NCBI GenBank assembly: GCA_017625695.1
Contig: JAGAKI010000009.1
Location: 1-35,346, forward strand
DNA: 35,346 nt
Reading direction: 5' to 3'
From: Clostridia bacterium
GTDB taxonomy: Bacteria > Bacillota > Clostridia > UMGS1840
Shown: positions 22,895-26,061 of the stretch, piece after piece
How positions within the stretch are numbered: the stretch's first letter is position 1
Layout of the letters: each line of letters opens with the position of its first letter
The notes under the pieces: generated by a model
What the model was told of the DNA's origin: nothing
Database searches by the model: none
Seen by the model: the letters and a program-made list of their open reading frames with translations, nothing else
Position numbers and translations under genes: made by a program

Positions 22895-24106
22895 CTATTG
22901 AATCGCTTTTTTTAGCTGTTCTTTTATTTCCAAATGAGACAGTTTGTCCAGAGAATCAATGATTTCAATCTTCATATCATTGGCACGCTGAATGAGATAT
23001 CTGCGGCTGGAAGCACCGGAAGAAATATAATTTGTAACTAATATTTTCTTTGCATACTCTCCACCAAATCGCTGTGCAACCGAATCCAGTTCGTATAATG
23101 CTTCTTTATGTACTTCCCCGTTTTTACAGGAAATAAAAACAGGAATCATCCCACGCATTAAAAAAACATCAATTTCATTGCGGGTTTCCATTCTTTCTCC
23201 ACGGTAAAAACAACCGTCCCAATCAATCATCACGCCAATTCCGATATCGGAAAATATGCCGGATTCTTCTTCTGAAATCTCATGTGCCATTAAATAAACA
23301 TATAATTCCAAAATATTTCCCGCTTTTGACATTGCCCGCTTGACTGAAATGTTTTTATACCGGAATAAAACTTTTTGATGTTCTATCTGTACTTCATTCA
23401 ATAATCCTGCACGGGACAAATCATCGAAAAAATCATTATCAGAAAGGATCCGCTGTTTTTCCGGAGAAAGCGATTCCAAATTTGCCGAAACAACGAGATT
23501 CCGGTTGGAATCAAACGGGTCAGTCAGACTTTCCAATGCAATGACAAATTGATTCCATTTCGTACAGTTTTTTCGGGAGATACTCCACATTTTTTTAATA
23601 TCATCCCGGAATTCTTCGCTTAACTCCCATCGAAATGATTCTTCTGTTTTTGTGACGAGCTCACCACCGTTTAAAACAATGTCTTCCCGAATCGAAAGCG
23701 ATGCCTTTGAAGGTTCCAAAATGTCATCTGTATGCTTAACCCGTATAAAACGACCACTTCTGGGGTTAAACTGCACCATAGGAATTTGGTGAATTGTAGA
23801 AAGTTCTCCCATTGCAGTCAATACCAGTTCTTTGCCACCGGTCAAATCAAAACAGCAATTTGAATGTGTTTTTATGATTTCTTCCAAAACCTGCAATGAG
23901 GACTCATAGGAATACCGTTCTACCGTGACATATTTTAAAGAAACTTTCTGTTTTCTTAGTTCAAAAAAACGTTCCACGTCCCGACGTCGTTTTTTTGTCA
24001 TAACTGCGTCGTAGCCAACAAAAACGATGGTTTCCGGCAAAAAGCGAACTCCTGCAACGATATTTAACAATTGACACTCATCAAAAAATTCAATCAAGGT
24101 TTTCAT
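22895..24106 (-). CDS. DUF1887 CARF-domain nuclease (Card1/Can2-like)
   Basis: A 403-residue protein with the DUF1887 architecture known from Card1 and Can2: an N-terminal CARF-type Rossmann domain that binds cyclic oligoadenylate in those proteins, and a C-terminal PD-(D/E)xK nuclease. Visible signs: the CARF loop DLTGGKE (87-93) and MVQFNPRSGRFIRV; helix AGNILELYVYLMA with Glu267; and the nuclease core RNEID (309-313) followed by FISCKNG (325-331). The usual acid-x-Lys is Ser327-Cys-Lys329 here, so the active site lacks one acidic residue in this reading. There is no CRISPR array or cas gene in the window. It follows the LUD gene by 50 bases with AAAGGAA before its ATG. Function as a defence nuclease is inference. 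Confidence 0.85.
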   Translation of the reverse strand: MKTLIEFFDECQLLNIVAGVRFLPETIVFVGYDAVMTKKRRRDVERFFELRKQKVSLKYVTVERYSYESSLQVLEEIIKTHSNCCFDLTGGKELVLTAMGELSTIHQIPMVQFNPRSGRFIRVKHTDDILEPSKASLSIREDIVLNGGELVTKTEESFRWELSEEFRDDIKKMWSISRKNCTKWNQFVIALESLTDPFDSNRNLVVSANLESLSPEKQRILSDNDFFDDLSRAGLLNEVQIEHQKVLFRYKNISVKRAMSKAGNILELYVYLMAHEISEEESGIFSDIGIGVMIDWDGCFYRGERMETRNEIDVFLMRGMIPVFISCKNGEVHKEALYELDSVAQRFGGEYAKKILVTNYISSGASSRRYLIQRANDMKIEIIDSLDKLSHLEIKEQLKKAIQ

Positions 24107-24156: not shown

Positions 24157-24768
24157 TTAATATCCCAAATCTTCATTGATTAAAATGATTTCGTATTCTA
24201 CACCGGTGGGTTTTTGAGATAATATGGAAAAATTCCGACAAATACGGTCAGAACTGTTGCAATCATAGCATCGGTCTGCATGAATTGCACATGGTGTTTT
24301 ACGATTCAGACGTTTGGCATTTAACGGTGCAGCAATATTGCGTGCACGATAAAATGCTGATTCATAGTCCGGTGCTACTTTGTTGGCACTGACCACAAGA
24401 TACACCTTAGAAGGACCGTAGGAAATTGCAGCAACACGGTTGCCGGTACTGTCAATATTCACAATCTCACCCTGTTGGGAAATCCCGTTGACGGAACTGA
24501 GATAAATTTCCGCACGTGAAGCTGCTGTCCGTGTTTCCATCACTGTCATGTGTTCGGGTTTTTCATCGTGCCAATATACCGTATTATGAGTGGAAAGCAA
24601 ATCAAACACCTTCATTTGGTGAAGTGTCACAGAACCACCAAAACCTACGGTTTTTCCATCGATTTGACGATTTAGATACTCTGCGGCTTCTTCTTTGGAG
24701 TCAAACACAGATACCCGATAACCTTTATTCTCCAAATTATTTTTTAATACTGAAAAATCATATGTCAT
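24157..24768 (-). CDS. LUD-domain (LutC/YkgG-like) protein
   Basis: A 203-residue protein of the LUD (DUF162) family, related to LutC of the lactate-use system but often stand-alone in Clostridia. It has the glycine-rich VGFGGSVTLHQ (41-51), the central GISQQGEIVNIDSTGNRVAAISYGP strand-loop, and a cysteine-rich tail with Cys160, 167, 170 and 177 in CAIHADRCYDC...RIC. The tail could bind a metal or cluster. No lutA or lutB is in the window, so a lactate role is not supported. GAGGT lies near the ATG. It is probably co-transcribed with the CARF nuclease downstream. Confidence 0.83.
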   Translation of the reverse strand: MTYDFSVLKNNLENKGYRVSVFDSKEEAAEYLNRQIDGKTVGFGGSVTLHQMKVFDLLSTHNTVYWHDEKPEHMTVMETRTAASRAEIYLSSVNGISQQGEIVNIDSTGNRVAAISYGPSKVYLVVSANKVAPDYESAFYRARNIAAPLNAKRLNRKTPCAIHADRCYDCNSSDRICRNFSILSQKPTGVEYEIILINEDLGY

Positions 24769-25180
24769 AGTTTACTACCTCTTATTATTACGATACAGTT
24801 ACAATCTGCTTGGATTGTTAATTGACAATGGAGTGCGACACATAAGGTTTAGATGCAACTTGTTTTAGCTAAATTTTGCAACAAGTTGCAAAGCTAAATT
24901 ATTCCATCTTACTCCATAGCTAAATAGCTCCTTTGGAGTAGCTAAATTAAATTCGCCTTTTAGCGTGCAAAGCACATTTAGCTGCCGTAAGGCAATTTAG
25001 CTGAGTTTACTCAATTTAGCTCGCATTAGCGAATTTAGCTGCGTTGCTATGCAACGCAATTCTTCATGTCAAGTCAGAACAAAAAAAGTATCATTTGACA
25101 AAAATAATGATTCTTTTTCAACTATTATATCTTAACTTTAAAAAAAGTGCAATAGCTGTAATGTAAATGTTATAAGAAAA
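24769..25180. other. Gene-free stretch with hairpin array
   Basis: No coding region is convincing here. The centre (24854-25057) is an array of small palindromes described separately. The 25058-25180 part is AT-rich with no clear element, except TTGACA at 25096-25101 with no good partner. The leftward LUD promoter must lie before 24769, but I cannot choose a -10 element. Confidence 0.7.
24854..25057. repeat. Array of small palindromes joined by a 9-bp linker
   Basis: The linker AATTTAGCT appears at about 24975 (as CATTTAGCT), 24994, 25013 and 25032, an exact 19-bp period. Between and after these copies are GCC-GTAA-GGC, GAG-TTTA-CTC, CGC-ATTA-GCG, and finally GCGTTGC-TAT-GCAACGC (25041-25057). 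In the left half the complement AGCTAAATT appears at 24867, 24892, 24918 (last base changed) and 24940. Palindromes there include TTGCAAC-AA-GTTGCAA (24876-24891) and CTCC-TTT-GGAG (24928-24938), plus CGC..GCG at 24954 and TGC-AAA-GCA at 24966. A larger 11-bp stem joins 24854-24864 to 24880-24890. The two halves are in opposite orientation, so they can also pair with each other. Confidence 0.85.
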
Positions 25181-25263: not shown

Positions 25264-26061
25264 TTATGCAGACAATCTTAATAGAATATTATCTGCGATC
25301 ATCGCAAGAAATTCAGAATTTGTTGGTTTTCCACGGGAAGATAATACGGTACATCCAAACAGTTTGGCAATATTATCTGCATCACCCCGAGTCCAAGCCA
25401 CCTCAATTGCATGGCGGATGGCACGTTCCACACGACTGGGTTTGGAATCAAATTCTTTGGCAGTCATTGGGTACAGCTCTTTGGTAACGCTGTGAAGTAA
25501 TTTTCTATTTTCCAAAACTCTTAAGATGGCAAAACGAAGATACTCATAGCCTTTTATATGTGCCGGCATCCCCACCTCGTGGAAAATGTTCGTAACCATT
25601 TGTTCTAAAATGGGATTTTCTTTGGATGTTTCAATATTTTCGATTTTTGGAATACACTTTTTGCCGGGTAATTGGTCTATGGTTTTTTCGCCGTTGGCAA
25701 CAGCTTTTATCTGAGTAATTAAGGAAAGTGTTTCAAAGGGTTTCATCACAAAATAATCAGCACCCATTTCTAAAATCAGTTTTTCAATGGAAGGAAGCTT
25801 AATATCCAACATAAAAATTACGGTACAATTCTCATGAAGTAAAAATTCTTTCTTCATCTGCTCCAATAGCCAGATACCATCACCGTTTGGCATGGTGATA
25901 TCGGTCAATACAATATCAGGCCGTTTTTCACGAATTAACTCCAAGGCAGCCTTCCCTTCATGAGCAACTGAAATTTCACCAAAGTAGGAATCATTTTCTA
26001 AGTGAGGAAGCAATTCCCCAACCATTGTAATATCATCGTCAATCACAATTATCTTTTTCAT
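25264..26061 (-). CDS. spo0A: Sporulation master regulator Spo0A
   Basis: Response regulator that starts sporulation when phosphorylated. The 265-residue protein has a receiver with acidic pocket Asp8-Asp9-Asp10, phospho-acceptor Asp54 in LTDITMP, and Lys107 in VMKPF. The Spo0A-specific DNA-binding domain is strongly conserved: LYPMTAKEF...PSRVERAIRHAIEVAW and GKPTNSEFLAMIAD. One switch residue is missing: where other Spo0A proteins have Thr in IMLTA, this has Leu85 (VIFMLDIK). AAGGAG precedes the ATG. A 0A-box-like site and a sigma-A promoter lie upstream. No kinase gene is adjacent. The presence of spo0A places the genome in an endospore-forming lineage, whether or not it still sporulates. 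Confidence 0.95.
   Translation of the reverse strand: MKKIIVIDDDITMVGELLPHLENDSYFGEISVAHEGKAALELIREKRPDIVLTDITMPNGDGIWLLEQMKKEFLLHENCTVIFMLDIKLPSIEKLILEMGADYFVMKPFETLSLITQIKAVANGEKTIDQLPGKKCIPKIENIETSKENPILEQMVTNIFHEVGMPAHIKGYEYLRFAILRVLENRKLLHSVTKELYPMTAKEFDSKPSRVERAIRHAIEVAWTRGDADNIAKLFGCTVLSSRGKPTNSEFLAMIADNILLRLSA

Follow-up and report, generated by a model that had tools for sequence, protein, structure and literature searches.

A hairpin array behind spo0A in a Clostridia bacterium: a probable copy of a dispersed element family linked to PF05635 four-helix-bundle proteins

The window analyzed here, a stretch of 35,346 nucleotides from a Clostridia bacterium (GenBank assembly GCA_017625695.1, contig JAGAKI010000009.1), contains between spo0A and a LUD-domain gene an array of hairpins separated by a constant 9-bp linker. 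Is this array a local accident, or one copy of something that spreads? Comparison with related arrays points to the second answer: we consider it probable that the array belongs, as a non-autonomous copy, to a family of selfish elements that spread horizontally and have a cognate four-helix-bundle (4HB) protein. The observations behind this reading are (i) dispersal, (ii) shared ends, (iii) context-specific insertion points, (iv) covariation of stems, (v) linkage of arrays to 4HB genes with one linker per 4HB clade, and (vi) occupied and unoccupied sites for 4HB units of other phyla.

The array comprises eight linkers at positions 24867-25040, four per strand, between seven hairpins and one outer hairpin. 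Six linkers are exact (AATTTAGCT or AGCTAAATT, three per strand) and two are one-base variants (AGCTAAATA at 24918-24926 and CATTTAGCT at 24975-24983), in agreement with the count and orientations given by the original prediction. Exact AATTTAGCT occurs six times in the whole window, always within this interval, against a chance expectation of 0.46, and none of 100 shuffles reached six. The linkers of the right half start at 24994, 25013, and 25032, so the claimed period of exactly 19 bp is correct, and the stems between them indeed change in pairs (GCC/GGC, GAG/CTC, and CGC/GCG). Folding of both strands as RNA, proposed as a check, gave structures well beyond dinucleotide shuffles (z -5.5 and -5.3). 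An Rfam scan of the window returned no match.

Copies of the array were counted by pattern searches. The source genome (1.97 Mb) contains 81 AATTTAGCT 9-mers, whereas the reversed control occurs 7 times; linker-N6-20-linker pairs number 24, and none for the control. A local accident without further copies in the genome, the alternative that the prediction had allowed for, is thereby excluded. These linkers cluster into about 14 elements of one architecture. The element was found in 9 of 60 relatives, and its central 17-mer GCGAATTTAATTTAGCT, with one mismatch allowed, in 40 of 391 Clostridia genomes. The distribution is patchy across many families, with at most 15 matches per genome, and the named genomes with several matches are mainly gut and rumen Clostridia. 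Copies scattered across families carry near-identical modules. A blastn search for the array itself in phage and plasmid sequences gave no match, and pattern matches in viral contigs were rejected as chance, with one match per contig and often codon-multiple spacing. Other array families, with linkers TCGATATG, ATGAATTG, and AGTGGTAT, lie beside the AATTTAGCT family, either in tandem with it or close by, and have outer hairpins in common with it (L358, L360, L364, L365 downstream of the array, L381, and L410).

The copies end in a small number of ways and enter the genome at characteristic points. Four end classes were distinguished: P, T, G, and G2. P copies start at the promoter -10 box, 20 of 23 just behind a TTG-N17-TANAAT promoter (17-bp spacer), and their identity is about 0.3 outside the 5' boundary and about 0.9 inside it. 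T copies start directly after a tRNA CCA with a terminator-like hairpin, and ARAGORN found the tRNA at 13 of 16 loci. G and G2 copies follow ATAT or AATT in stretches containing TTGACA. Insertions are found behind the CCA end of a tRNA, behind a promoter -10 box, or within the spacer of a promoter. The 3' modules are class-specific as well: all open with CATCTA, and they close with TATAAT (P), CCA (T), or TATAT (G). They lie 9-11 nt from the array, or 127-1087 nt where genes stand between. Wherever the module was recognized and the 5' class was clear, the two ends agree (P-P, T-T, and G-G/G2), the sole mismatch being the P-type copy L045 with a diverged G-like module. The window copy belongs to the G2 class, and its 3' module matches the G2 consensus of other genomes exactly. 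In a comparison with DDE-type miniature inverted-repeat elements, whose terminal inverted repeats go with a target-site duplication identical at each insertion, TANAAT or CCA flanks insertions on both sides; since the pair of -10 copies at a single insertion is often not identical, a simple target-site duplication was set aside as unlikely. These dispersed copies with shared ends bear out the proposal of a genome-wide hairpin family or mobile repeat.

The space between array and 3' module can hold cargo. Seven cargo genes were found there: one for a NUDIX hydrolase and six for a PF05635 protein of 119 aa. The link to PF05635 genes is decisive for the reading and lay beyond what the original prediction could see. 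The cargo protein matches PF05635 ("23S rRNA-intervening sequence") with E 1.9e-28, and its PDB relatives are 2rld and, weakly, 2gsc; the source genome has one such gene at G000:C61:57740-58096. Twenty genomes were searched for PF05635 genes, and the DNA upstream of these genes was read; most of them lie directly behind a hairpin array. The linkers, assigned to these genes partly by eye, include AGCTAAAT, AGTGRTAT, ATGATAT, ATATCGA, GTGAAGA, ATGAAGC, AATGATGT, ATGAAAT, GTGAAAT, and ATGAATT. On the tree of 4HB proteins, the 11 linker labels need 10 changes, which is the minimum (shuffled mean 17.9; 0 of 200 shuffles as low), whereas host family needs 17 changes on the same tree; thus, array and protein travel together across host families. 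The linker is particular to each 4HB clade, the feature expected of a PF05635-linked array family. A second draw of Clostridia genomes provided an independent sample of 23 further 4HB loci and 28 control open reading frames (ORFs). An inverted bracket or unusual upstream fold was present in 13 of the 23 4HB genes and 2 of the 28 controls, at thresholds chosen after the loci had been seen (flank complementarity z > 4 or upstream folding z < -3.5). A weak PF05635 match also stands beside a reverse transcriptase in the source genome (G000:C7:4283-5765) and in another array-bearing genome (G004:C19:19023-20505); these two loci are possibly diversity-generating retroelements.

Repeat-flanked 4HB genes are also seen in other phyla. 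We read 16 plasmid 4HB genes from Cyanobacteria, Bacteroidota, Spirochaetota, Chloroflexota, and Clostridia; in 13, two or more copies of a heptamer lie upstream and two or more of its complement downstream, an arrangement seen in 0 of 38 control ORFs. A Clostridia-type 4HB unit was found on two phage contigs. Related plasmids without the unit were identified for the cas2/cas1 site (two Nostoc plasmids), a helicase/methylase site (two), and a Nostoc locus (three), and between occupied and unoccupied sites the homology ends at or near the repeat arrays. Gene pairs that enclose a plasmid unit are cas2 and cas1, hsdS and hsdR, and helicase and methylase (coordinates L450 3971-4327, L436 1501-1842, and L448 3935-4333).

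With the family defined, the window copy can be read part by part. The element extends from the 3' module, at about 24834, to the outer hairpin, which ends at 25057, and its canonical reading is the minus strand. It is thus longer than the 24854-25057 originally proposed. In canonical order, the outer hairpin h0 is followed by left-arm AGCTAAATT linkers and hairpins, the centre, and right-arm AATTTAGCT linkers and hairpins:

25264-26061, minus: spo0A, upstream neighbour, not part of the element
25058-25072, minus: 5' flank TTGACATGAAGAATT; G-type copies elsewhere have CTTGACA...AT/ATT directly before the outer hairpin
25041-25057, minus: outer (h0) hairpin GCGTTGCATAGCAACGC, G2 class, 5' end of the element
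25032-25040, minus: left-arm linker 1, AGCTAAATT
25022-25031, minus: hairpin L1 (CGC..GCG)
25013-25021, minus: left-arm linker 2
25003-25012, minus: hairpin L2 (GAG..CTC; GAAC/GTTC or GAGC/GCTC in other copies)
24994-25002, minus: left-arm linker 3
24984-24993, minus: hairpin L3 (GCC..GGC)
24975-24983, minus: left-arm linker 4, one-base variant AGCTAAATG
24965-24975, minus: hairpin L4 (GTGC..GCAC)
24940-24964, minus: centre GCTAAAAGGCGAATTTAATTTAGCT, where linker orientation inverts; includes the 17-mer GCGAATTTAATTTAGCT used for counting elements
24927-24939, minus: hairpin R1 (ACTCC..GGAGC)
24918-24926, minus: right-arm linker, one-base variant TATTTAGCT
24901-24917, minus: hairpin R2 with purine-rich internal loop (ATGGAGTAAGATGGAAT; tandem G.A in other copies)
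24892-24900, minus: right-arm linker AATTTAGCT
24876-24891, minus: hairpin R3 (TTGCAACTTGTTGCAA)
24867-24875, minus: last right-arm linker AATTTAGCT
24834-24856, minus: 3' module GCATCTAAACCTTATGTGTCGCA, 10 nt past the array; the genes of cargo-bearing copies stand between it and the array
24157-24768, minus: LUD-domain gene, downstream neighbour, not part of the element

The LUD gene is adjoined in turn by a gene for a CARF-PDDEXK (Card1-like) nuclease at 22895-24106 of the window, minus strand (PADLOC CARF4, E 1.6e-41).

Alignment of 50 copies revealed that, where stem pairs vary, Watson-Crick pairing is retained much more often than with permuted partners, a control inflated by the shared ancestry of the copies, and that linkers do not covary. 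Pair 2 of R1 is paired in 50 of 50 copies (25 expected) and pair 6 of R3 in 48 of 50 (23 expected), and R2 retains mismatched purines. Together with the dispersed copies and shared ends, this covariation supports the suggestion that folded units are selected or copied. The palindromes, described as variable, differ between positions of the array; within one position, they form that position's own conserved hairpin or a few alternatives. The left arm has mainly TNC or TNNC loops and the right arm mainly GNA or GNNA loops. On the canonical strand, G.T mispairs outnumber A.C mispairs by 21 to 9 in the right arm and stand at 5 to 4 in the left; these counts lean only weakly toward the canonical strand as the folded one.

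These features give the anatomy of the element and suggest a life cycle. A 5' hairpin is followed by an inverted array, in which constant linkers alternate with position-specific hairpins, then by an optional gene and a 3' module; the fuller version encodes the PF05635 4HB protein. This protein may bind its own array via the constant linkers, displayed as folded single-stranded RNA or DNA, and copies of the window type may be spread in trans by the 4HB protein and host enzymes. A local transcript-end structure or a protein-binding array, both named in the original prediction, may be secondary roles. More tentatively, as a possibility rather than an expectation, the family could represent a new class of mobile elements, in which a small 4HB protein without a recombinase, transposase, or reverse transcriptase of its own would recognize folded inverted arrays and drive their spread into tRNA ends, promoters, and operons.

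Several observations weigh against a mobile family with a 4HB partner. In the independent sample, a strict exact-7-mer metric scored 9 of 23 4HB genes and 5 of 28 controls; being too insensitive for degenerate heptamers, it was replaced by the flank complementarity and fold z-scores. About 5 of the 23 PF05635 genes in that sample have no repeats, as judged by eye, and the sets of control ORFs are small. The array-bearing genomes G015 and G004 gave no 4HB protein match; thus, copies may outlive the protein or be moved otherwise, and the result is as expected for non-autonomous leftovers or another mover. The AATTTAGCT family itself yielded no empty site. At the spo0A locus of one sister species (L393, the one locus read in detail; L394 and L395 were not inspected for it), the array is absent, and a tRNA nucleotidyltransferase-like gene rather than LUD follows spo0A. 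The sister comparison proposed earlier thus yielded a locus without the array but with a different flank; a clean empty site was rejected because the flank differs, and no junction can be drawn. The plasmids with unoccupied sites are diverged, and their intergenic DNA shows replacement (188 bp at the Nostoc site) instead of a clean gain, so these comparisons give occupied and unoccupied states and not a junction-level mechanism.

Among other explanations, the one that survives best, although we judge it unlikely, is that the array is a 5' leader RNA bound by the 4HB protein for control of its own and neighbouring genes, dispersed by ordinary recombination and retained for regulation. Arrays do stand in the 5' leader position of 4HB genes and others, P copies begin just behind promoters, and the right arm has an excess of G.T over A.C mispairs on the canonical strand; but the left arm has no such excess, T copies, placed behind tRNA terminators, have no gene that they could regulate, the downstream genes are unrelated, and the distribution is patchy with matched end modules. 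Copying at the RNA level by a reverse transcriptase is quite improbable. Avd of diversity-generating retroelements is a four-helix-bundle relative, and the 4HB protein might act in the same manner; the reverse transcriptase beside a weak PF05635 match in the source genome (G000:C7) and insertion at mature tRNA CCA ends, suggestive of an RNA intermediate, speak for this explanation. The present elements, unlike Avd, have no accompanying reverse transcriptase, and no PF00078 match was found in 7 of 9 element-bearing genomes, including G007 with its 15 centre-motif matches. Still less probable is movement of REP/REPIN-like elements by a Y1 transposase (RAYT, IS200/IS605-type) through folded single-stranded DNA: the repeats are short, palindromic, and dispersed, and the loops, GNA on one strand and TNC on the other, are of a kind suited to stable mini-hairpins in DNA, but the linked protein is PF05635, and Y1_Tnp was not found in 3 of the 9 genomes, including G358 with 11 centre-motif matches. 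Allowing for draft incompleteness, both enzymes were rejected as general movers, being absent from several element-bearing genomes. The least probable is a domesticated terminator or RNA-processing structure kept at each site by selection. T copies do open with a terminator-like hairpin behind tRNA genes, but the same array stands elsewhere behind promoters and in promoter spacers, and it is absent at the one sister-species spo0A locus read in detail.

Comparison of the mobile family with described systems revealed partial likeness to several of them. The 23S rRNA intervening sequences (IVS) are selfish inserts with complementary borders that may encode an S23 protein (PMC4990558). They were for long the sole known setting of this small helical protein. 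Like them, the present elements are sporadic and probably selfish and horizontally acquired, and full copies carry an S23/PF05635 ORF with complementary borders; however, an IVS has one simple stem inside rRNA, where RNase III excises it, whereas the present family has inverted heptamer or linker-hairpin arrays and many array-only copies per genome, and the copies read lie at tRNA ends, promoters, and intergenic sites rather than in rRNA genes. REPIN/RAYT systems (compare PMC3116915) likewise have dispersed palindromic repeats in inverted pairs, each family tied to a protein clade, but their protein is a Y1 transposase and the present arrays are larger. Heptamer repeats of Cyanobacteria, Xanthomonas, and Beggiatoaceae are described in the searched text as 7-bp and intergenic, often in convergent pairs in Xanthomonas (PMC4692102), with horizontal spread suspected and no known mechanism (PMC4679880). 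The present units are alike in these respects; the searched text of both papers contains no link to S23 or 4HB proteins.

The Gut-1 RNA (RF01706) was reported as a noncoding RNA of the human gut (PMC2864571). Its consensus is the linker (G)TGAAAT alternating with hairpins. In the GTGAAAT and AGTGATAT families, it aligns to units of the form linker-hairpin-linker; it recurs in a genome as often as 15 times or more and sometimes precedes a 4HB gene. Its covariance model, at a threshold of at least 50 bits, has no match in the window or in L049 but matches the sister families at L432 1935-2008 (minus strand), L440 1290-1362, and L439 1286-1356, where GTGAAAT/AGTGATAT arrays lie behind tRNA terminators. 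Gut-1 is the left arm of a sister array family, and its reading as a stand-alone noncoding RNA may need revision; the full inverted array, its ends, and the 4HB link do not appear in the searched text on Gut-1. In the open-access literature, we found no paper linking S23/4HB proteins, rRNA IVS, Gut-1, and heptamer repeats.

Neither a function nor a mode of spreading is known from the descriptions of S23/4HB proteins, rRNA IVS, the orphan Gut-1 RNA, or genus-wide heptamer repeats. The clade-specific match of protein and repeat offers a testable partner for each of them and a candidate mechanism of dispersal, with ready reagents in a protein of about 120 aa and an array of about 170 nt. It is a first lead on the nature and spread of such dispersed repeat arrays, and the proposed class of elements, if true, would bring rRNA intervening sequences, Gut-1 RNA, heptamer repeats, and S23 proteins together as one system.
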